The notes under the pieces: generated by a model
Databases searched by the model: none
What the model was told of the DNA's origin: nothing
The model's input: the letters and a program-made list of their open reading frames with translations, nothing else
NCBI RefSeq assembly: GCF_001422485.1
Contig: NZ_LMNF01000002.1
Span: forward strand, 445,949-509,948
DNA: 64,000 nucleotides
Source of the DNA: Agreia sp. Leaf283
GTDB lineage: Bacteria > Actinomycetota > Actinomycetes > Actinomycetales > Microbacteriaceae
Direction: 5' to 3'
Translations under genes and position numbers: made by a program
Shown here: piece by piece, positions 30,041-42,129 of the stretch
How the letters are laid out: each line of letters begins with the position of its first letter
How positions within the stretch are numbered: position 1 is the stretch's first letter

Positions 30041-31456
30041 TCAGCGGCTGGGAGGGATCTCGTCGAGCACCCCGGATGTCTTCTCCGGCGCATCCGAGCG
30101 GCGGGGATTCACGATGCCGATGCCCGAGACGATGCCACCGAGCACGAGGAGCACGCCGGTGACGATCGCGGCGCGGTGGAATCCGTCGACGTCGAGATTC
30201 GCTCCCACGATGAGCCCGGCGGCCGCGACCGAGATGAGGCCCGCGACCCGGGAGACCGCATTGTTCACGGCCGAGGCGATGCCCGCACGAGACTGCTCGA
30301 TGGAGCCGAGGATGGCGGAGGTGAGCGGCGCGACCGTGATGGTCATGCCCAGTCCGAACACGATGATCCCGGGAAAGACCTCGCTCCAGTAGTCGGCCGT
30401 GCTCGAGAGGCGCAGGAGCAGGAAGAACCCGGCGCCCGCGACGATCGGTCCGACGAGCATGAAGAATCGCGATCCGTACTTTCCGGCGAGCCGGCCGACC
30501 TGTGTCGAGAGGGCGATGCTGATGATCGTGGTGGGGAGCATGCTCAGGCCTGCCAGGGTGGCTGTGTACCCGGCCACCTGCTGCAGGAACACGGCGAGGA
30601 GGAAGGTTCCCAGCGAGAGCGCGCCGTACACGAGGAACGTCGAGACGTTGCCCACCGAGAAGTTGCGCACCCGGAACAGCGACAGCGGCATCATCGGCTG
30701 CGCCGTGCGCCGCTCGTGCACGATGAAGAGAACGAACGAGACGACACCGACACATGCGGGAACGATGATGACGGGACTCGTCCAGCCGAACCTGGACTGT
30801 TCGATGAGCGCGAAGACGGGCAGACCCAGGCCGACGATTCCGAGCACCGCGCCGATCACATCGACGCGGGATCCCGGCGCCGCCGGACGGTCGTGGGGAA
30901 GCCGGGCGAGGAAGAAGAGGGTCACGGCGATCGGGATCACGTTGATGGCGAAGACGAGCCGCCACGAGACGAGGTCGACAAGGAGGCCTCCGATGAGTGG
31001 CCCGGCGAGAAAAGCCGTGCTCGTCCACGCGGTCCACGACCCGATCGCCTTCGCCTGGGCCGGGCCCGAGAACGCGGAGAGGATCAGGGCGAGCGAACTG
31101 GGGACGAGGAGCGCCCCCGCGACTCCCTGGAGGGCCCGCGCCCCGATGAGGACCCCAGCGGTGGGAGCCACCGCGCAGATCAACGACGACACGCCGAACC
31201 CGACGACACCCCAGAACAGCACCCGCTTGCGCCCGAAGACGTCGGACAGCGAACCGGCCAGCAGGATGATGGAGCCGAGGGTGATGAGGTACGCGTCCAT
31301 CACCCACTGCTGCGTCACGATGCCGCCGCCGAGTTCTCGTGTGATGGCGGGGAGCGCGACCGTGATGACGGTACCGTCGAGGAACGCGACGAAGGCGGAG
31401 AGCACGGCGACGATCAGTACCAGGCGCTGCATGACGGGGGTGGGAGGTGTGGACAC
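30041..31456 (-). CDS. MFS multidrug-type exporter (DHA2-like)
   Basis: 471 residues and about 14 hydrophobic segments, the DHA2 drug:proton antiporter layout. Family marks are AFLDGTVITVALPAITREL in helix 1, LLAGSLSDVFGRKRVLFWG (motif A) and GALLVPSSLALI. GTG 31456 is chosen over an upstream GTG at 31519 because TTAGCT ends six bases before it. It is divergent from the Pls-like synthetase, with 126 bases between starts. Export of the synthetase product or self-protection is a reasonable guess but is not shown. Confidence 0.88.
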   Translation of the reverse strand: MSTPPTPVMQRLVLIVAVLSAFVAFLDGTVITVALPAITRELGGGIVTQQWVMDAYLITLGSIILLAGSLSDVFGRKRVLFWGVVGFGVSSLICAVAPTAGVLIGARALQGVAGALLVPSSLALILSAFSGPAQAKAIGSWTAWTSTAFLAGPLIGGLLVDLVSWRLVFAINVIPIAVTLFFLARLPHDRPAAPGSRVDVIGAVLGIVGLGLPVFALIEQSRFGWTSPVIIVPACVGVVSFVLFIVHERRTAQPMMPLSLFRVRNFSVGNVSTFLVYGALSLGTFLLAVFLQQVAGYTATLAGLSMLPTTIISIALSTQVGRLAGKYGSRFFMLVGPIVAGAGFFLLLRLSSTADYWSEVFPGIIVFGLGMTITVAPLTSAILGSIEQSRAGIASAVNNAVSRVAGLISVAAAGLIVGANLDVDGFHRAAIVTGVLLVLGGIVSGIGIVNPRRSDAPEKTSGVLDEIPPSR

Positions 31457-31462
31457 ATTCCT

Positions 31463-31468
31463 AGCTAA
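31463..31468 (-). promoter_or_regulatory. -10 hexamer TTAGCT, leaderless start of the MFS gene
   Basis: Spacer AGGAAT (6 nt), then GTG at 31456. AGGA in the spacer is too close to act as a Shine-Dalgarno. Confidence 0.45.
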
Positions 31469-31489
31469 CTCCACAGACGACGAATCCGT

Positions 31490-31501
31490 ACCCGTTCGGG
31501 T
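31490..31501. promoter_or_regulatory. Inverted repeat, candidate operator between MFS and synthetase genes
   Basis: ACCCGTTCGGGT, a perfect 12-bp palindrome. It lies 34 bases upstream of the MFS start and 82 bases upstream of the synthetase start, just upstream of both candidate -10 elements. It could bind a dimeric regulator of both genes. Confidence 0.35.
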
Positions 31502-31529
31502 CGTTAACCTCTCGTCCACCTCCGGCCTC

Positions 31530-31535
31530 TATGGT
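31530..31535 (+). promoter_or_regulatory. Candidate -10 TATGGT for the Pls-like synthetase
   Basis: Transcription near 31542 would give a leader of about 41 nt ending in the CAGGAG ribosome binding site at 31571-31576. Confidence 0.3.
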
Positions 31536-31582
31536 TCGAGCGCCGCGTGGGCGCGCGGCGACCGATACACCAGGAGACTGAC

Positions 31583-34500
31583 GTGACCGACTCCCCCGCC
31601 GACCGCGGACTCCTTCTGGGCAGCGAGCGAACGCCGCCGGAGCGCACCCTCGTCGACATCCTTCGGGAATCGGCCGACAGGCATCCGGAATCGGCGGCGC
31701 TGGCCGATGCGAACGGATCGATCAGCTACCGCGAGTTGATGCGGCTCGTCTCGCAGGCCGCCGTCGCGCTGTCGATCGCCGGAGTCCGTCAGGGCGACAG
31801 GGTCGGAATCCGCATCCCCTCGGGGGGGCGCACGCTGTACATCTCGATCCTGGCCGTGCTCGTGCTCGGCGCCGCCTACGTGCCCGTCGACGCCGACGAT
31901 CCGGAGGAGCGGGCCGAACTCGTCTTCGGCGAGGCCGACGTCGTGGGCTTCATCGGAGCGGATGGCACGATCGTGCCCAGGACCTCGGCCGACGGCACGC
32001 GCCGACTCGATACCCGACCGAGCGTCGGCCTCGAGCCCGTTCGCACCGGAACCGGAACCATCACCACGCTCGGCTCCCCCACTCCCGACGACGACGCCTG
32101 GATCATCTTCACCTCCGGCTCCACCGGAGTGCCGAAGGGGGTCGCCGTCACCCACCGCTCGGCCGCCGCCTTCGTCGACGCCGAGGCCCGCCTCTTCCTC
32201 CGCTCGGAACCGCTCGACGAGGGCGACCGTGTGCTCGCCGGCCTCTCCGTCGCCTTCGACGCGTCGTGCGAGGAGATGTGGCTCGCCTGGAGGCATGGGG
32301 CCTGCCTGGTTCCCGCGCCCCGCTCGTTGGTGCGCTCGGGCGCCGACCTCGGCCCATGGCTCATCGCGCACGGCATCACCGTCGTCTCGACGGTTCCCAC
32401 CCTGGCCGGGCTCTGGCCCGCCGAGTCGCTCGAGAACGTACGCCTGCTCATCTTCGGCGGCGAGGCGTGCCCGCCCGAGCTCGCGGCACGGCTCGCCACT
32501 CCGGCCCGCGAACTGTGGAACACCTACGGGCCGACAGAGGCGACGGTCGTCGCCTGCGGCGCGCTCCTCGACGGATCGACGCCCGTGCGGATCGGCCTTC
32601 CCCTCGACGGTTGGGACCTGGCCGTCGTCGATGCGGCCGGCGAACCGGTGGGCGAGGGCGAGGTCGGCGAACTGATCATCGGAGGCGTGGGACTCGCCCG
32701 CTACCTCGACCCGGCCAAAGACGCGGAGAAGTACGCGCCGATGCCCAGCCTCGGCTGGCCGCGCGCCTACCGCAGCGGCGACCTGGTGCGATTCGAGCGG
32801 GCGGGACTGGTCTTCCAGGGCAGAGCGGACGACCAGATCAAACTGGGCGGCCGAAGGATCGAGCTGGGCGAGATCGAGGCGGCCCTGCAGGCACTGCCGG
32901 GTGTCGCGGGCGCCGCGGCCGTCGTGCAGACCTCGGGCGCGGGCAACCAGGTGCTCGTCGGCTATCTCGCGCTCGACCAGAGCATCGCCGAGTCCGACTT
33001 CGACCGCGCGGCGGCCGTGGCCAGGCTCCGAGAGGAGCTGCCGGCCGCACTCGTGCCGGCGCTGGCCGTCGTCGAGTCCATTCCGACCCGCATCTCCGGC
33101 AAGGTCGACCGCTCCGCACTCCCGTGGCCCCTGCCCGCGAGCGGCGGCGCCGGTCAGCCCGGGTCGACTGCCGAGCTCACGGGAACCGCCGGATGGTTGG
33201 CAGAGCTCTGGACGAGCGTCCTCGGAACGGCCGTGTCCGACTCCTCCGACGACTTCTTCGCGGTCGGCGGCGGCAGCCTGGCCGCGGCCCAGCTCACGAG
33301 CATGATCCGGGCACGCTTCCCCGAGGCGCGGGTGTCCGACATCTACGACCACCCCCGCATCGGGGCACTGGCCACCGAACTCGACTCGCGCACTCCACGC
33401 GAGGCGGCCGAGCCCCGCACTGTCGTTCCCACGCCGCGTTCCACCCAGTGGGCCCAGACCCTCCTCGGCATCCCGCTCCACATCATCGTGGGTGCGCGTT
33501 GGAGCGTCTACCTGCTCGCGGCGAACCTCCTCCTCGCCGCATTCGCCGGCATCGACTGGCTGCCCGAGATCTCCTGGTGGTGGCTGATCATCGGGTTCCT
33601 CGTGCTCGTCACGCCCGTCGGCCGCATGGCCGTCTCGGTCGTCGCCGCCCGCATCCTGCTGCGCGGCGTGCGGCCGGGCTCGTATCCGCGTGGAGGGCAC
33701 GTGCATGTGCGCCTGTGGCTCGCCGAGCAGGTCGCCGGGCTCGTGGGTGCGGCCAGCCTCGCCGGTGCACCGTGGATCTCGTACTACGCGCGCGCCCTGG
33801 GAGCCACGATCGGAGAGGGCGTCGATCTGCACTCGCTGCCGCCGGTCACGGGAATGCTCAAGCTGGGAGCCCGAGTCGCCATCGAACCCGAGGTCGACCT
33901 CTCGGGGTACTGGATCGACGGCGACCTGCTGCACATCGGCACGATCACGATCGGAGCCGACGCGACGATCGGCTCGCGGAGCACGATGCTTCCGGGCGCC
34001 CGAGTCGGTCGAGGCGCCGAGATCGCCGCGGGATCATCGGTGTCCGGCCGAGTGCCCGGCGGCGAACGCTGGGCGGGCTCACCGGCCGAGCGGATGGGCA
34101 AGGCCCGCCCGGGCTGGCCGGCCGAACGGCCGCCGCGCGCATCCGGCTGGGTCGCGGCCTACGGCGCGGGCTCGGTCGTGCTGTCCCTTCTCCCCCTCGC
34201 GGCGCTCGCGGTCGGTGCGCTCGTCACGGGTGCGATGGTGCGGGGCTCGGATTCGCTCGGCGAACTCGCTCTGCGTGCCCTCTCGTCGGTTCCGCTCGCC
34301 ACGTTGGCCGCGGGCGTCGTGTTCGCGGCGCTCATCGTGGGCAGCGTGCGGCTCCTCGGCATCGGCCTCGCCCCGGGGCACTATCCGGTGCGTTCGCGCG
34401 TCGGCTGGCAGGTGTGGGCCACCGAGCGCCTGCTCGATCTCTCACGCACCATGCTCTTCCCGCTCTACGCGAGTCTCATCACCCCCGTCTGGCTCCGCCT

Positions 34501-35527
34501 GCTCGGGGCCAAGGTCGGGTCGAACGTCGAGGCGTCGACGGTGCTGCTGCTGCCCGCCATGACGACGATCGCCGACCACGCCTTCCTCGCCGACGACACG
34601 ATGGTGGCGTCCTACGAACTGGGCGGCGGCTGGATGCGCATAGATGAGGCCAAGATCGGCCGGCGGGCGTTCCTCGGCAACAGCGGCATGACCGGACCGG
34701 GGCGCACGGTGCCGAAGAACGGACTCGTGGCCGTGCTGTCGGCGACGCCGCGAAAGGCGAAGTCCGGATCGTCGTGGCTGGGCAATCCCCCGGTGCGCCT
34801 GCGCCGCGCCGTGGCCGAATTCGACGAGAGCCGCACCTACGAACCGTCGCGTGTTCTGAGAATCGCGCGGGCCCTGTGGGAGCTGGGCAGACTCGTGCCG
34901 GTCATGGTCACGGTGGCCATCGGGCTCGGCGTGCTGCTCGCTCTCGAGGCCGCGCTCGTCGCCTGGGGACTGGGGTGGACGATCGCCGTGTCCGGTCCCG
35001 TGCTGTTGGCGGCGGGAGCAGTCGCGGCCGCGGTCACGACCGTCGCGAAGTGGACGATCGTGGGCCGGATCCGCGCCACCGAGCATCCGCTCTGGTCGTC
35101 GTTCATCTGGCGCAACGAGGTCTCCGACACCTTCGTCGAGATGGTGGCCGCGCCGTGGTTCGCGCGGGCGGCGACGGGCACTCCTGCACTCGCCCTGTGG
35201 CTGAAGTCCCTCGGCGCACGCATCGGCGCGGGCACCTGGATCGAGACGTACTGGCTTCCCGAGGCCGACCTCGTCTCGCTCGGCGACGGCTCGACAGTGA
35301 ACCGCGGCTGCGTGGTGCAGACCCACCTCTTCCACGACAGGGTCATGTCGCTCGACAGGGTGGCGCTCGCAGCGGGCGCGACCCTCGGCCCGCACAGCGT
35401 GATCCTGCCCGCGGCGCGCATCGACGACGGCGCGACCGTCGGTCCCGCTTCCCTCGTGATGCGGGGCGAGGTCGTTCCGGCGGCCAGCCGGTGGAGGGGC
35501 AACCCCATCGCCCCGTGGAATACTTGA
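31583..35527 (+). CDS. Pls-type single-module NRPS (poly-amino-acid synthetase-like)
   Basis: 1314 residues from GTG 31583, which follows CAGGAG by six bases. One adenylation domain spans about 15-510: FTSGSTGVPKGVAVTH at 176-191, NTYGPTEATVV near 313, YRSGDLVRFE near 396, RADDQIKLGGRRIELGEIE near 413 and RISGKVDR near 503. One carrier domain follows (DDFFAVGGGSL, Ser565). There is no condensation or thioesterase domain. Instead, three pairs of membrane helices alternate with three tandem hexapeptide/left-handed-helix-like domains (about 715-850, 950-1070 and 1150-1314). This is the layout of epsilon-poly-L-lysine synthetase (Pls) and related enzymes. The amino acid used is unknown. It is followed eight bases later by an M1 peptidase. 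Confidence 0.9.
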   Translation: MTDSPADRGLLLGSERTPPERTLVDILRESADRHPESAALADANGSISYRELMRLVSQAAVALSIAGVRQGDRVGIRIPSGGRTLYISILAVLVLGAAYVPVDADDPEERAELVFGEADVVGFIGADGTIVPRTSADGTRRLDTRPSVGLEPVRTGTGTITTLGSPTPDDDAWIIFTSGSTGVPKGVAVTHRSAAAFVDAEARLFLRSEPLDEGDRVLAGLSVAFDASCEEMWLAWRHGACLVPAPRSLVRSGADLGPWLIAHGITVVSTVPTLAGLWPAESLENVRLLIFGGEACPPELAARLATPARELWNTYGPTEATVVACGALLDGSTPVRIGLPLDGWDLAVVDAAGEPVGEGEVGELIIGGVGLARYLDPAKDAEKYAPMPSLGWPRAYRSGDLVRFERAGLVFQGRADDQIKLGGRRIELGEIEAALQALPGVAGAAAVVQTSGAGNQVLVGYLALDQSIAESDFDRAAAVARLREELPAALVPALAVVESIPTRISGKVDRSALPWPLPASGGAGQPGSTAELTGTAGWLAELWTSVLGTAVSDSSDDFFAVGGGSLAAAQLTSMIRARFPEARVSDIYDHPRIGALATELDSRTPREAAEPRTVVPTPRSTQWAQTLLGIPLHIIVGARWSVYLLAANLLLAAFAGIDWLPEISWWWLIIGFLVLVTPVGRMAVSVVAARILLRGVRPGSYPRGGHVHVRLWLAEQVAGLVGAASLAGAPWISYYARALGATIGEGVDLHSLPPVTGMLKLGARVAIEPEVDLSGYWIDGDLLHIGTITIGADATIGSRSTMLPGARVGRGAEIAAGSSVSGRVPGGERWAGSPAERMGKARPGWPAERPPRASGWVAAYGAGSVVLSLLPLAALAVGALVTGAMVRGSDSLGELALRALSSVPLATLAAGVVFAALIVGSVRLLGIGLAPGHYPVRSRVGWQVWATERLLDLSRTMLFPLYASLITPVWLRLLGAKVGSNVEASTVLLLPAMTTIADHAFLADDTMVASYELGGGWMRIDEAKIGRRAFLGNSGMTGPGRTVPKNGLVAVLSATPRKAKSGSSWLGNPPVRLRRAVAEFDESRTYEPSRVLRIARALWELGRLVPVMVTVAIGLGVLLALEAALVAWGLGWTIAVSGPVLLAAGAVAAAVTTVAKWTIVGRIRATEHPLWSSFIWRNEVSDTFVEMVAAPWFARAATGTPALALWLKSLGARIGAGTWIETYWLPEADLVSLGDGSTVNRGCVVQTHLFHDRVMSLDRVALAAGATLGPHSVILPAARIDDGATVGPASLVMRGEVVPAASRWRGNPIAPWNT

Positions 35528-35534
35528 GCGACCG

Positions 35535-36869
35535 ATGCCGCACACACCTTTTCACCCCAGTCACGGGTCGCTCTCGATAGGCGACAGCTACGTTCCCTCG
35601 AGCGGCAACGGCGGATACACGGTCTCGTCGTACGATCTCGACCTCGACTACCGCGTCGCGAACAACCGTCTCGCCGCCACCGCCGTCATCACGGCCACGG
35701 CCACTCGTGACCTGAGCCGCTTCAGCCTCGACTTCTGCGGACTCGTCGCCACCCGCGTGACCGTCGACGGCGTCGCACCGTCGAAGCTCGTCGAGTCGGC
35801 GAGGAAGCTGACCATCACGTCGGCTCGCACGATCCCGCCCGGCGAGCAGTTCGTCGTCACCGTTCGCTACGGCGGCTCCCCTCATCCGGTGCGCAGCCCG
35901 TGGGGCGAACTCGGCTGGGAGGAGCTCAGCGACGGCGTGCTGGTCGCCTCGCAGCCGAGCGGCGCCGCGAGCTGGTTCCCGTGCAACGACCACCCGAGCG
36001 ACAAGGCCGCCTTCCGCATCCGCATCACGACCGAGTCGTCGTACTCGGTTCTGGCCAACGGCCGGCTCCTCTCGAAGGTGCGCCGGGCCAGCCGCACGAC
36101 GTGGACGTTCGAGACCGTCGAACCCATGGCCACCTACCTTGCCAGCATCCAGATCGGCGCGTATCGCGAGATCGTCCTCGCGCGCGTTCCCGTGCCGCAA
36201 TCCGTGTTCGCGCCGCCCGCGATCGTCTCACGGGCGCAGAGCGACTTCGCCGACCAGGAACGCATGCTCGCGCTCTTCGAGCGTTCGTTCGGTCCCTACC
36301 CGTTCGGCGAGTACTCGGTCGTCGTGACCGACGACGACCTCGAGATCCCCGTCGAGGCCCACGGGTTCGCCGTGTTCGGCAAGAACCACATCGACGGCCT
36401 CGGCGGCTCGGAGAGGCTCATCGCGCACGAGCTCGCCCACTCCTGGTTCGGCAACAGCCTCACCGCGACGACCTGGAAGGACATCTGGCTGCACGAGGGC
36501 TTCGCCTGCTACGCCGAGTGGCTGTGGTCGGAGGAGTCCGGAGGCCTGTCTGCCGACAGGCTCGCCCACCAGCACTGGGCCCGGCTGTCGCACCTGCCGC
36601 AGGACCTGACCATCGGCGATCCCGGCCCCGAGCTGATGTTCGACGACCGCGTGTACAAGAGGGGCGCCCTCACCCTGCACGCCCTGCGCCTCACCGTCGG
36701 CGACGACGCGTTCTTCGAGCTGCTGAGCTCGTGGGCGACGGAGAACCGCTACGGCAACGTCACGACCGAGGGCTTCTACCTTCACGCGAACGACCGCAGC
36801 CCGATCGACCTCGGCGAGCTGTTCGAGACGTGGCTCTTCTCCGAACGACTGCCGGTTCTGCCTCACTGA
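35535..36869 (+). CDS. M1 family zinc metallopeptidase
   Basis: 444 residues, shorter than classical aminopeptidase N (about 870) because only the N-terminal beta and catalytic domains are present. The zinc site is HELAH at 298-302, with Glu321 in LHEGF 19 residues later. Catalytic Tyr374 lies in RVYKRGALTL. The GAMEN exopeptidase motif is replaced by VEAHGF (273-278), so substrate binding may differ. There is no signal peptide. It begins eight bases after the Pls-like gene and is surely cotranscribed. Pls-type producers are known to carry a zinc aminopeptidase that degrades their own polymer, so a role in product turnover or trimming is inferred. Confidence 0.88.
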   Translation: MPHTPFHPSHGSLSIGDSYVPSSGNGGYTVSSYDLDLDYRVANNRLAATAVITATATRDLSRFSLDFCGLVATRVTVDGVAPSKLVESARKLTITSARTIPPGEQFVVTVRYGGSPHPVRSPWGELGWEELSDGVLVASQPSGAASWFPCNDHPSDKAAFRIRITTESSYSVLANGRLLSKVRRASRTTWTFETVEPMATYLASIQIGAYREIVLARVPVPQSVFAPPAIVSRAQSDFADQERMLALFERSFGPYPFGEYSVVVTDDDLEIPVEAHGFAVFGKNHIDGLGGSERLIAHELAHSWFGNSLTATTWKDIWLHEGFACYAEWLWSEESGGLSADRLAHQHWARLSHLPQDLTIGDPGPELMFDDRVYKRGALTLHALRLTVGDDAFFELLSSWATENRYGNVTTEGFYLHANDRSPIDLGELFETWLFSERLPVLPH

Positions 36870-36902
36870 CCTCGACCGTACAGGTCTCGGCGCCGTCTCC
36901 GA

Positions 36903-37481
36903 TTACTCGATCAGGTCGACGAGCACGGGGTCCGTGCCGAGCAGCACGACGCTGAGCACGAGGTCGGGGTCGTTCACGGCAACATCCACGATGACGGCGT
37001 CGACACGAGAACCGGATGCGAGATCGACGGTCGTGAGATCGAATCGCAGACCTCGGCCGGTCGCCTTGAGATAGGCCTCCTTGCGAGACCACAGCCGCGT
37101 GCGGAGCAGAGCGCGCGTCGCGGCCGGCTCGTCGTCGATCAGGTCGCGCTCCGCGTCGGAGAATGCCACCTCGTCGACCCGGGCCCTCGAGACGCTCGTC
37201 CGCGATTCCACATCGACCCCGAGATCTCGACCCGCGGCATCCATCGACACGGCGACCGCGACCAGACCGCCGGCCGAGCTCTTGCTCACCACGATCTCGG
37301 AGCCGTCCGGGGCTCTGGGCGACGACACCCGCGGCTTGCCGTGCGGCCTGCCGCAGTCGTCGCACGACGAGTCGATGACCACCTGCTCGGGTCGAACCCC
37401 GGCGATGGATGCGACGGCTCGTTCGAGCGCGTCGACCGCCGGTGCCGATTCCAGCACGACCCGTACATGGCTCGTCGTCAT
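36903..37481 (-). CDS. 4'-phosphopantetheinyl transferase
   Basis: 192 residues from ATG 37481. It transfers phosphopantetheine from CoA to carrier-protein serines. The Sfp-like signature is complete: CGRPHGKPRV at 43-52, LGVDVES at 87-93 with Asp90 and Glu92 as metal ligands, and WSRKEAYLKATGRGL at 131-145 with Glu135 and Lys139. It is convergent with the Pls-like/M1 pair, 33 bases from the M1 stop, and very probably primes Ser565 of the synthetase. It overlaps osmC by four bases, so it is coupled to it. Confidence 0.92.
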   Translation of the reverse strand: MTTSHVRVVLESAPAVDALERAVASIAGVRPEQVVIDSSCDDCGRPHGKPRVSSPRAPDGSEIVVSKSSAGGLVAVAVSMDAAGRDLGVDVESRTSVSRARVDEVAFSDAERDLIDDEPAATRALLRTRLWSRKEAYLKATGRGLRFDLTTVDLASGSRVDAVIVDVAVNDPDLVLSVVLLGTDPVLVDLIE

Positions 37482-37942
37482 CCGGCCCGCGGCTCGTGCA
37501 GCACGGGAAAGTTCACGGAGTTGGCGATGAAGCACTTCTCGCTCGCCTCGGCGTGAAGAGTCTGGGCGAGCTCGGCCTGGTCGGGATCGGCGAGCTCGAC
37601 CCTCGGGTGCAACGTCGCCGAGGTGAAGCGGCCACCGCCCGTGCGGTCGAGTGCCAGCGTGCCTGTCGCCTCGTCGGTGTATCCCGTGACCACGACGCCG
37701 TGCAGCACGGCGACGTGGAGATACGAGAGCATGTGGCACTGGCTGAGCGCAGCGAGCAGCATCTCCTCCGGATTCCAGCGGTCGATGTCGCCGTGGAAGG
37801 TGCGGTCGGCGCTGCCCTCGATCGGATGCTTGCCCTCGGCATGCACGAGATGCTGGCGCCCGTAGTCGCGGTAGCCGCTCGTGCCCGTGCCCCTATTTCC
37901 AAGCCACTCTACGGTCACCGTGTAGGAATGCTGCGCTTTCAC
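37478..37942 (-). CDS. OsmC family peroxiredoxin-like protein
   Basis: 154 residues of the OsmC/Ohr fold, thiol-dependent hydroperoxide reductases. The two conserved Cys are present, in ALSQCHMLSYLH (about residue 89) and EKCFIANSVNFPV (about 136). WNPEEMLLAALSQC is a strong family match. The GTG start is fixed by TAGGCT six bases upstream. Its ATGA overlap with the PPTase gene suggests one mRNA, though the two functions are unrelated. Confidence 0.9.
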   Translation of the reverse strand: MKAQHSYTVTVEWLGNRGTGTSGYRDYGRQHLVHAEGKHPIEGSADRTFHGDIDRWNPEEMLLAALSQCHMLSYLHVAVLHGVVVTGYTDEATGTLALDRTGGGRFTSATLHPRVELADPDQAELAQTLHAEASEKCFIANSVNFPVLHEPRAG

Positions 37943-37994: not shown

Positions 37995-39350
37995 ATGACT
38001 GACACGCTGAGTTCCTCCTACACCGTCGCCCAGGAGCGGAAGGTCGTCACGGCGATCCCCGGCCCTCGAAGCATCGCACTGCACGAGCGACGACTGGCCG
38101 TTGTGCCGGTGGGGGTCGGCACGGCTCTTCCCGTCTACATCGAGAAGGCCAACGGCGCCATCCTCGTCGACGTCGATGGCAATCAGTTCATCGACCTCGG
38201 AGCCGGCATCGGCGTGACCACGGTCGGCCACACCTCCGCCCGTGTCATCGAGGCGGCGACTGCCCAGCTGGGCAAGGTGACGCACACGCTCTTCACGGTC
38301 ACGCCCTACGAGGAGTACGTGCGCGTGGCCGAGCTGCTCGCGGAGCACACCCCGGGCGACTTCGCGAAGAAGACCGTCCTCGTCAACTCCGGAGCCGAGG
38401 CCGTCGAGAACGCGGTCAAGATCGCGCGCAAGTACACGCGCCGCACGGGCGTGGCCGTGCTCGAGCACGCCTACCACGGCCGCACGAACCTGACCATGGC
38501 CATGAACTTCAAGGCGGCGCCGTACGCCACCGGATTCGGCCCCCTCGCGGGAGCCGTCTACCGTGCGCCCAACTCGTATCCCTACCACGACGGCCTCACC
38601 GGCGCCGAGGCGGCGGAGCGCACCATCGGCTACCTCGAGAAGACCGTCGGCGCGTACGACCTCGCCTGCCTGGTGGTCGAGCCGATCCAGGGCGAAGGCG
38701 GCTTCGTCGTGCCTGCCGACGGCTACCTGCCCGCACTGCAGCAGTGGTGCACCGACAACGGCGTCGTCTTCATCGCCGACGAGATCCAGAGCGGCATGGC
38801 CCGCACGGGTGCGTACTTCGCGAGCGAGCACTTCGGCCTGGTGCCCGACATGGTGCTGAGCGCCAAAGGCATCGCGGGCGGTCTCCCCCTCGCCGGCGTC
38901 ACCGGACGCGCGGACATCATGGACGCAGCCCTTCCCGGTGGCCTGGGCGGCACATTCGGCGGAAACCCCGTGGCCGCCGCTGCAGCCGTCGCCGTCTTCG
39001 AGCAGATCGAGAACGACAACCTGCTGGCCGAAGCGACACGCATCGAACAGACGCTGGTCACCGGCCTCGAGACCCTCGCCTCGAAATACGACATCATCGG
39101 CGACATCCGGGGCGTCGGCGCCATGATCGCGATGGAGCTGGTGCAGCCCGGAACAGGAGCGACGACGAAGGAGCCCAACCCGAAGGCCGTCGACGCCATC
39201 GTGGCCTACGCCGCCGAGCACGGCGTCCTCGTGTTGAATGCGGGAACGTACGGCAACATCGTGCGCTTCCTCCCGAGTCTGGCCATCTCCGACGCGCTCC
39301 TCACCGACGCGCTCGGCGTGATCGACGAGGCCATGGCGACCCTGCGATGA
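37995..39350 (+). CDS. gabT: 4-aminobutyrate aminotransferase (class III)
   Basis: 451 residues. It moves the amino group of GABA to 2-oxoglutarate, giving succinate semialdehyde. Class III PLP enzyme marks are NSGAEAVENAVKIARKYT, AYHGRTNLTMAMNFK, VEPIQGEGGFVVP, FIADEIQSGMARTG and LSAKGIAGGLPLAG with the PLP Lys at 291. Length and the N-terminal RSIALHERR segment fit actinobacterial GabT. It overlaps the asparaginase gene by four bases. With the nearby Pot transporter it suggests use of putrescine or GABA as a nitrogen source. Confidence 0.92.
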   Translation: MTDTLSSSYTVAQERKVVTAIPGPRSIALHERRLAVVPVGVGTALPVYIEKANGAILVDVDGNQFIDLGAGIGVTTVGHTSARVIEAATAQLGKVTHTLFTVTPYEEYVRVAELLAEHTPGDFAKKTVLVNSGAEAVENAVKIARKYTRRTGVAVLEHAYHGRTNLTMAMNFKAAPYATGFGPLAGAVYRAPNSYPYHDGLTGAEAAERTIGYLEKTVGAYDLACLVVEPIQGEGGFVVPADGYLPALQQWCTDNGVVFIADEIQSGMARTGAYFASEHFGLVPDMVLSAKGIAGGLPLAGVTGRADIMDAALPGGLGGTFGGNPVAAAAAVAVFEQIENDNLLAEATRIEQTLVTGLETLASKYDIIGDIRGVGAMIAMELVQPGTGATTKEPNPKAVDAIVAYAAEHGVLVLNAGTYGNIVRFLPSLAISDALLTDALGVIDEAMATLR

Positions 39351-40327
39351 GCTCGGTGGCAGCGGGCGCCGTCACGATCGACGGGGCCGTCGAGCTGGCG
39401 GTCCTCGAGCGCAGCGGGTTCGTCGAGTCGCGTCATGTGGGCGCGGCCGTCGTGGTCGCACCGGACGGCGCGATCATCGACGAGCTGGGCGACGCCGGGG
39501 CGCCCGTGTTTCCGCGTTCCAGCCTCAAGCCCTTCCAGGCTCTGGCCATCCGCGAGGCGGGCGTGCACCTCAGTCCCCTGCAGACCGCCCTGTCGATGGC
39601 GAGTCACGGTGGCACGTCGGCGCACGTCGAGGTCGTGCGCGAGATCCTCGCACTCGCAGCTCTGGTCGAATCCGACCTCGGATGCCCGGCGGACTGGCCA
39701 GGTGACAGGGCCGCCCGCGACGCCGTGATCCGCGCCGACGCCGGAGTGCAGCGTGTCTTCATGAACTGCTCGGGCAAGCACGCAGCCATGCTGCTGGCGT
39801 GCGTTCAGCAGGGCTGGAGCACGACCGACTACCTCGACCCGGGCCATCCCCTGCAACTGCGCGTGCGCGAGGTCATCGAGCGGGAGACCGGCGAGACGAT
39901 CGTGGCATCGGGTGTCGACGGATGCGGCGCACCCGTGCACGCGATCTCGCTGCGAGGCCTCGCTCGCGGCGTGTCACGCATAGCGCAGCGCAGCACGCCC
40001 GATTCCGAATGGCTCGTCGACTCGGTTCTCGCCAACGGCTGGGCGGTCGACGCTCCCGGCGAGCAGAACACGCTGGTGATCGACGAGCTGCAGATCTTCG
40101 CGAAGCTCGGAGCCGAAGGGGTCATGGTCATGTCCACACTCTCCGGTGTGGCGGTCGCACTCAAGATCCTCGATGGCAGCCTGCGCGCGGCCGCGCTCGT
40201 CGCGCTCGAACTCCTCGTGCGCGCGGAAGCGATCGACCGCCGCGGCGTCGACACTCTTCTCGCTCGCTTCGACCTGACCGTTCTCGGCGGGGGCAAACCC
40301 GTCGGAGCGATCAGAGTCACCGCCTGA
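39347..40327 (+). CDS. Asparaginase (asparaginase II / PF06089 type)
   Basis: 326 residues from ATG 39347, which overlaps gabT (ATGA). The family hydrolyses asparagine to aspartate and ammonia. It has SSLKPFQALAIREAG near residue 50, SHGGTSAHVE, MNCSGKHAAMLLACVQ, DGCGAPVHAISLRGLARG and LGGGKPVGAIR at the end. This family is unlike the E. coli type I and II enzymes. Coupling to gabT points to a common nitrogen-scavenging role. Confidence 0.88.
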   Translation: MSSVAAGAVTIDGAVELAVLERSGFVESRHVGAAVVVAPDGAIIDELGDAGAPVFPRSSLKPFQALAIREAGVHLSPLQTALSMASHGGTSAHVEVVREILALAALVESDLGCPADWPGDRAARDAVIRADAGVQRVFMNCSGKHAAMLLACVQQGWSTTDYLDPGHPLQLRVREVIERETGETIVASGVDGCGAPVHAISLRGLARGVSRIAQRSTPDSEWLVDSVLANGWAVDAPGEQNTLVIDELQIFAKLGAEGVMVMSTLSGVAVALKILDGSLRAAALVALELLVRAEAIDRRGVDTLLARFDLTVLGGGKPVGAIRVTA

Positions 40328-40354
40328 CTCGGAGGCTCGCCGCCTACGCCGCGA

Positions 40355-41218
40355 TCACGAGAGCCGGTCGAGTCTCTTCTGCCGGGCCGCTCGACTGACC
40401 TGGCTCACCACGACGATCGCGATCGCGAGGATGAAGACGGCCGACGCGATGACATTCGCCTCGGCGGGGATCCCCCGGGCCGCCGCGATGTAGATGAACT
40501 TCGGGAAGGTGTCGACCGAGCCGGCGTTGAAGTTCGTGATGATGAAGTCGTCGAAGCTCAGCGCGAACGACAGCAGCGCCGCGGCCAGGATGCCCGGGAG
40601 CAGCAACGGGAAGGTGATGCGCCAGAAGACCTGCGCAGCAGATCCGTACAGGTCGCGTCCGGCTTCCTCGAGCGCAGGATCGAGCCCAGCCACCCGTGCC
40701 TTGACCGTCACGACGACGAAGCTGATGCAGAACATCGTATGGGCGAGGATCACCGTGACGATGCCCTTCTGCGTACCGAGGGCCAGGAACTGGGCGGCGA
40801 GGCCCGCGCCCAGCACCACCTCGGGTGTGGCCATCGGCAGGAACAGCAGCAGGCTGATGCTCGACCGGAACCGGAACCGGTACCGCACGAGGGCGATGGC
40901 GATCGCCGTTCCGAGCGCCGTCGCGAGCACCGTGGCCACGACCCCGACGAGGATGCTGTTGCCGAACGCCTCGCAGAGCCCGGGTTCGTTGCAGACGGTC
41001 AGCCACTTCTCGAGGGTGAAGCCGCGCCAGGCCAGGTTCGACTTCACGGAGTCGTTGAACGAGAAGACGAACGTGTATCCGATGGGAATGAGCAGGAACA
41101 CGAGAGCCAGGGCAACGTAGATGGGCAGTCCGAGACCGGACAGTCTGCGACGCGGTCGCCGCCCGGCTGCTGGATCGGGCCCGGCCTGATTCGCAGTGTC
41201 GAGGGGCAGGGCCGTCAC
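40355..41218 (-). CDS. potC: ABC transporter permease, PotC-like (polyamine uptake)
   Basis: 287 residues with six membrane helices after a basic N-terminus. The cytoplasmic EAA loop reads EEAGRDLYGSAAQVFWRIT (about 182-200), the coupling site for the ATPase. It is the last gene of the D-A-B-C operon and overlaps potB by four bases. It is convergent with the asparaginase gene, 27 bases away. Confidence 0.88.
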   Translation of the reverse strand: MTALPLDTANQAGPDPAAGRRPRRRLSGLGLPIYVALALVFLLIPIGYTFVFSFNDSVKSNLAWRGFTLEKWLTVCNEPGLCEAFGNSILVGVVATVLATALGTAIAIALVRYRFRFRSSISLLLFLPMATPEVVLGAGLAAQFLALGTQKGIVTVILAHTMFCISFVVVTVKARVAGLDPALEEAGRDLYGSAAQVFWRITFPLLLPGILAAALLSFALSFDDFIITNFNAGSVDTFPKFIYIAAARGIPAEANVIASAVFILAIAIVVVSQVSRAARQKRLDRLS

Positions 41219-42129
41219 AGCAGGTCCTCCGTTCCGCTGCGGCGCACGTAGACGCCGACGAGTATGAGAATCACGGCCATCAGGATGATGGAGAGCGCCG
41301 CCGCGACCGGGTAGTTCTGCAGGGTGAGGAAGTTGGCTTCGATCGCGTTGCCGAGCATCGCGGTCTTGCTCGAGCCCAGGAAGTCGCGGCTCGCGTTGAT
41401 GTAGTCGCCCGCGGCGGGAATGAACGTGAGCAGGGTTCCCGAGATGATTCCCGGCATCGACAGGGGAACCGTGACCTTGAGGAACGTCGTGGCAGGGCTC
41501 GCATAGAGGTCGTTTCCCGCCTCGAGGAAGCGGATGTCGAGGCGCTCCAGCGTTGTGTAGAGCGGAAGTGTCATGAACGGGATGAAGTTGTACGTCAGGC
41601 CGAAGATGACCGCGAAAGGTGTTCCCGTCAGGTGACCGTCTGCCGGCAGGATGGCCACGGCCTTGAGTGCGAGCACGACGGGCGACTCATCGGACAGGAT
41701 CTGCTTCCATGCGAGGGTGCGAAGCAGGAAGCTGATGAAGAACGGCGCGATCACCAAGGTGAGCATGAGGCTCTGGAGCAGTGGCCACCGGCGTGCCTTC
41801 ACCCCGATGAAGTACGCGATGGGATAACTGATGACGAGGGCGAACACGGTCGCCACCAGCGCGTATCCGAAGGCGCGGAGGATATGGGGCAGGTACTCGC
41901 TGGCGCTGTCGACGTAGTTCTGCCATTGCAGGCCCGGAACGTAGTCGCCGATGTCGCCGCCGGGCAGTTCAGCCTGGAACGATGTGATCACGAGCGAGAT
42001 CAGCGGCGTCAGGAAGAACAGCAGCATGTACAGGATGCCGGGCAGCAGCATCACGAGCGCGACCGTCGAGGCCCGCCTGGCCGGTTTCGTGACGACCGCG
42101 TCTGTCGAGGCGAAGGCGGCGAAGGCCAC
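41215..42129 (-). CDS. potB: ABC transporter permease, PotB-like (polyamine uptake)
   Basis: 304 residues and six membrane helices. The EAA loop is EAGNDLYASPATTFLKVTVP near 215. There is a long first periplasmic loop after FLTPLISLVITSFQAE, as in PotB and HisM-type permeases. It starts three bases after potA and overlaps potC by four. It forms the heterodimeric channel with PotC. Confidence 0.88.
   Translation of the reverse strand: MAFAAFASTDAVVTKPARRASTVALVMLLPGILYMLLFFLTPLISLVITSFQAELPGGDIGDYVPGLQWQNYVDSASEYLPHILRAFGYALVATVFALVISYPIAYFIGVKARRWPLLQSLMLTLVIAPFFISFLLRTLAWKQILSDESPVVLALKAVAILPADGHLTGTPFAVIFGLTYNFIPFMTLPLYTTLERLDIRFLEAGNDLYASPATTFLKVTVPLSMPGIISGTLLTFIPAAGDYINASRDFLGSSKTAMLGNAIEANFLTLQNYPVAAALSIILMAVILILVGVYVRRSGTEDLL

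Follow-up and report, generated by a model that had tools for sequence, protein, structure and literature searches.

The window analysed here, a stretch of 64,000 nucleotides from Agreia sp. Leaf283 (Microbacteriaceae; contig NZ_LMNF01000002.1, positions 445,949 to 509,948), carries what we predict to be an operon for the synthesis and degradation of epsilon-poly-L-lysine (epsilon-PL), pls-pldII, with a gene for a 4'-phosphopantetheinyl transferase (PPTase) beside it, a reading to which we give a probability of about 0.9. The predicted epsilon-poly-L-lysine synthetase gene, pls (31583..35527, + strand, 1314 residues), starts with a GTG at 31583 that is preceded by an AGGAG sequence, and its stop codon is followed after 7 bp by a pldII-like gene for an M1 zinc peptidase (35535..36869, + strand, 444 residues). 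The PPTase gene (36903..37481, - strand) is convergent, and a gene for a transporter of the major facilitator superfamily (MFS; 30041..31519, - strand) is divergent, lying 63 bp ahead of the pls start codon. Protein families, adenylation pocket and gene linkage are the directly observed parts of this explanation, and the gene order is as an earlier note on this DNA had described it, including the placing of the peptidase in the operon of the synthetase. The same note had proposed an undescribed system, a view that does not stand since both Pls homologues and the pls-peptidase operon have been described, the latter in Streptomyces and Corynebacterium (PMC8117764; PMC4361855; published work is cited throughout from the parts of each paper that were covered).

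The architecture of the enzyme is that of the Pls/PosA family of cationic homopoly(amino acid) synthetases, as had been recognised from the sequence: one adenylation domain (AMP-binding, residues 27-373, and AMP-binding_C, 430-507), a single carrier domain (PP-binding, 538-598) with its serine at position 565, and no match to a condensation or thioesterase family in a Pfam scan at E 0.001. Residues 624-1309 match TIGR02353, the Pls/PosA non-ribosomal peptide synthetase terminal domain, with 728.7 bits compared to a curated cut-off of 423.1, so the suggested search for this domain family in the C-terminal part gave a clear answer; it is the sole match above that cut-off in the genome (3.98 Mb, four contigs). 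The best sequence match in the Protein Data Bank (PDB) is 7wew, an epsilon-poly-L-lysine synthase, and the closest named synthetase relative among the matches listed comes from Agreia sp. VKM Ac-1783 (91% identity). Models of anti-phage defence matched neither the synthetase nor the peptidase.

For comparison, 199 genomes were drawn from the Microbacteriaceae, 80 of which contain a TIGR02353 match above the cut-off and are termed pls-positive; neighbourhoods, together with three second copies, were fetched from 78 of the 79 pls-positive genomes other than that of the window. Genome G076 was left out of this synteny set because its pls match is split over two frames (G076:C1:2188642-2190701), possibly through a frameshift or assembly error. 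A further 80 named loci are the best 80 out of 592 or more relatives, and some of their organisms are also represented in the family set. Together with the window these make up 159 lysine-type loci (78 family, 80 named), or 162 when three divergent paralogues (L108, L111, L112) are included. All genome-level associations given below are raw counts, in which kinship and genome size are ignored.

The substrate is indicated by the adenylation pocket. At what we take to be the ten classical pocket positions, placed by GrsA numbering, the window enzyme reads DAESIGTVVK, and all ten residues are identical in the aligned 7wew. The comparison with characterised enzymes that the earlier note had called for thus gives the pocket of an epsilon-poly-L-lysine synthetase, where the note had considered the amino acid unknown. 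The same code was found in 157 of the 162 loci, with DAESVGTVVK in two (L094, L103) and DFECLSVVTK in the three divergent paralogues. Key roles have been assigned to position 2 of the code, which is Ala in poly-lysine enzymes, Met in poly-ornithine enzymes and Phe in those for poly-diaminopropionate (PDAP) and poly-diaminobutyrate (PDAB), and to a Glu in position 3; this Ala and this Glu have been named as the determinants of chain length and side-chain amine (PMC10522769).

A different isopeptide polymer or a short oligomer, built from ornithine, diaminobutyrate, diaminopropionate or beta-lysine, is nevertheless conceivable as the product, as the family includes enzymes for each of them (PMC10522769). 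The three paralogues moreover combine a different code with a diaminobutyrate transaminase gene upstream, and therefore other products probably exist among the Microbacteriaceae. However, the code of the window enzyme is the same as that of 7wew, and is unlike both the DGESISVVNK of the beta-lysine enzyme and the codes with Met (ornithine) or Phe (PDAP/PDAB) at position 2 (PMC10522769); we therefore regard a substrate other than lysine as very unlikely here. The paralogues themselves are second pls-like genes of genomes G134 (L108), G071 (L111) and G187 (L112), with approximately 30% identity to the window enzyme. The transaminase (EctB/Dat type, above cut-off) lies on the same strand in each case, a match to the M1 peptidase is lacking, and these are likely poly-diaminobutyrate synthetases.

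The C-terminal part of Pls had been expected to contain six membrane helices and three tandem domains, and two kinds of prediction agree with this. Hydropathy identified six hydrophobic segments in three pairs (634-652/669-687, 865-883/912-930 and 1107-1125/1130-1148), and also flagged 84-102, within the adenylation domain, and a segment 895-913 that shares residues with 912-930. Residues 612-1314 were modelled with AlphaFold2 from 37 sequences (mean pLDDT 82.7, pTM 0.87), and the secondary structure of the model can be read as three repeats, each made of a pair of long helices with short helices and strands, which agrees with the model of PosA described in PMC10522769. A Foldseek search of the PDB with this model returned single beta-helix acyltransferases first (e.g. 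the acetyltransferase 3ftt, E 9.4e-05), and as the query-normalised TM score was at most 0.18 among the 50 best matches listed, none of these spans the whole domain. Across the 162 sequences, 54 alignment columns of the C-terminal part reach a constancy of 97% or more and are shared by the three paralogues, among them Gln1246, His1248 and Asp1252 of the third repeat. Given the analogy to those beta-helix acyltransferases that use a histidine, we offer, purely as a hypothesis, that the condensation site may be located in the third repeat.

The peptidase is the most constant partner of the synthetase. It matches PF01433 and PF17900 and displays the zinc ligands expected of a PldII-type M1 enzyme (His298-Glu299-x-x-His302 and Glu321, i.e. 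HEXXH at 298-302 in the arrangement HEXXH-18-E), PldII being, we assume, a member of peptidase family M1; its closest solved relative by sequence is the zinc metalloprotease 6a8z. An M1 gene lies directly 3' of pls in all 78 fetched lysine-type family loci, all 80 named loci and the window (159/159), compared to none of the three divergent paralogues, and by coordinates an M1 match also lies directly downstream of the split pls of G076. Homologues with E <1e-100 are present in exactly the 80 pls-positive genomes and in none of the 119 without pls, where the best match reaches E 9.2e-59. Residues 269-276 of the peptidase read L-E-I-P-x-E-A-[QH], with Leu269, Ile271, Pro272 and Glu274 the same in 159/159 homologues; this stretch lies, presumably, roughly at the GxMEN position of canonical M1 aminopeptidases, and is perhaps an adaptation to isopeptide substrates. 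PldII has been called an endo-type aminopeptidase and the main epsilon-PL-degrading enzyme, situated outside the membrane (PMC9223678). What this gene would contribute appears better described, in line with the postulated role of PldII, as degradation and self-protection than as the trimming suggested by the earlier note.

The PPTase is of the Sfp type (PF01648; 192 residues, counted from an ATG that overlaps the stop codon of an adjacent OsmC-like gene by 4 bp). A PPTase gene lies at most 4 kb from pls in 69 of the 78 fetched family loci, where it is convergent in 64 and upstream in the same orientation in 5; among the 80 named loci this holds for 34. Two or more PF01648 matches were found in 62/80 pls-positive versus 15/119 pls-negative genomes. 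The genome carrying the window has two, the second in a 121-residue frame of the size of AcpS, while PF00668 (condensation domain) gave no match in that genome. A description of this frequent neighbour was not found in the literature searched, PMC4361855 mentioning PPTases, in the part covered, only as a gene-ontology result.

By analogy with characterised homologues, the PPTase would transfer phosphopantetheine to Ser565, the adenylation domain would activate L-lysine at the expense of ATP and load it as a thioester onto the carrier, and the M1 peptidase would hydrolyse the polymer and so protect the producer; the polymer may leave the cell via Pls, alongside it or with the help of a different carrier. 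This last step bears on the divergent transporter (DHA2/EmrB type; TIGR00711, 254.9 bits versus a cut-off of 230.2), which had been taken for the exporter in a self-contained system of four genes. In favour of a role as exporter of the polymer or as a pump conferring self-resistance to it, the window, L038, L043, L061 and L113 each have a close homologue in divergent orientation no more than 100 bp from pls, and homologues at E up to 1e-100 are present in 122 of the 199 genomes, more often in pls-positive (69/80) than in pls-negative ones (53/119). However, the five close divergent cases are all from the window's genus, outside which matches in this position are weak (L122 at 679 bp and L118 at 1477 bp, with 129 and 125 bits respectively, compared to approximately 960 within the genus), and most homologues lie far from pls by coordinates. 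Other weak or moderate matches occur in other orientations (L042, L084, L092, L099, L102, L107, L144, L176). In L068 and L115 (Subtercola lobariae) a close homologue is convergent and lies downstream of the peptidase, a point for the exporter, and the transporter thus adjoins pls in two arrangements. A conserved exporter was rejected outside the genus, and the MFS gene is a lineage-specific neighbour outside the conserved unit: when co-conservation of the four genes is checked, the peptidase is always retained and the PPTase often, while the close divergent transporter is confined to the window's genus. We consider it unlikely that the transporter exports or pumps out the polymer as part of a four-gene cassette. 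Slightly less likely still is the fuller version for the Agreia lineage, in which it would be a dedicated exporter or self-resistance pump and the PPTase a dedicated activator of Pls, completing a self-contained cassette to make, activate, export and degrade poly-lysine. An epsilon-PL exporter is not named in the literature covered, and no word beginning with 'export' occurs in the covered part of PMC9205021.

Several observations weigh against the prediction of a pls-pldII operon with a PPTase neighbour. The PPTase is not a universal part, since it is missing within 4 kb of pls in 9/78 family loci (two of these with <2 kb of downstream sequence) and 46/80 named loci (five with <4 kb downstream); the named loci without it include many from Rhodococcus, Nocardia, Mycobacterium and relatives and some from Microbacteriaceae (L115, L131, L132, L151, L155), and 18 of the 80 pls-positive genomes have a single PF01648 match. 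The identification of the M1 gene as pldII is a prediction from operon position, family and size, and by eye the window protein lacks a signal peptide, whereas PldII is reported outside the membrane (PMC9223678). The pls gene of Corynebacterium variabile, which has the same operon context, directed epsilon-PL synthesis upon expression in Streptomyces coelicolor; however, neither epsilon-PL nor Pls protein was detectable in C. variabile culture, and the gene yielded no epsilon-PL in C. glutamicum (PMC8117764), so the window pls may be silent too.

A locus that is silent or inactive, with intact genes left unexpressed or a dead enzyme, has a precedent in that same species, in which pls is intact although the culture examined showed no detectable Pls protein (PMC8117764). 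The open frames, the conserved pocket, the carrier serine and the invariant C-terminal residues of the window enzyme argue for function instead, as does the co-retention of the peptidase across 80 genomes, and we find inactivity improbable.

The interval in which these genes were originally noticed, 31457-37942, takes in no more of the MFS gene than its start but contains the whole of the OsmC-like gene (37478-37942, - strand), which had gone unmentioned; an OsmC-like match lies near pls in 8/82 loci, window included. Beyond it, at 37995-42129, are a gamma-aminobutyrate (GABA) transaminase gene and then polyamine-type ABC permease genes, which look like putrescine or GABA catabolism adjoining the poly-lysine genes; a GABA transaminase is also found near pls in some close relatives. 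In a neighbour survey, open reading frames were called in the 162 loci and positions were taken from the 157 with a called pls frame (excluding L085, L089, L105, L106 and L131). Among the neighbour clusters present in at least eight loci, M1 (133 loci) and PPTase (78 loci) stand out, and further conserved neighbours were rejected as every other cluster occurs in at most 28 loci. The caller overlooked genes, including the PPTase of the window itself, and adjacency counts were therefore not taken from this survey.

Pls-PldII of Streptomyces albulus is like the window in architecture, pocket (7wew) and the peptidase gene directly downstream, differing in gene spacing, as pls and pldII form a single operon with a 4-bp overlap there (PMC4361855) compared to the 7-bp gap here, and in that the window has a PPTase gene adjacent as well. 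C. variabile, with its product demonstrated in a heterologous host, belongs to another bacterial family, and the main text of PMC8117764, as covered, contains neither 'phosphopantetheinyl' nor 'transporter'. PosA, the delta-poly-L-ornithine synthetase of Acinetobacter baumannii, is of the same enzyme family and is also predicted to have a three-repeat membrane domain, but has Met rather than Ala at code position 2 and uses ornithine (PMC10522769). The PDAB and PDAP synthetases, again family members and with Phe at that position (PMC10522769), have a gene context unlike pls-pldII (PMC8117764).

The locus thus reveals no new system, and homologues of Pls whose pockets match those of confirmed Pls exactly or very closely had already been reported from coryneform actinobacteria, among them Corynebacterium, Brevibacterium, Arthrobacter, Microbacterium and others (PMC8117764). 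What it adds is a regular tie between pls and its peptidase in a family of environmental actinobacteria, where a homologue of the same strength accompanies pls in 80/80 genomes and is found in 0/119 of those without it. It also points out a PPTase as a frequent neighbour of pls, and offers many Pls enzymes from outside Streptomyces for the testing of chain length.
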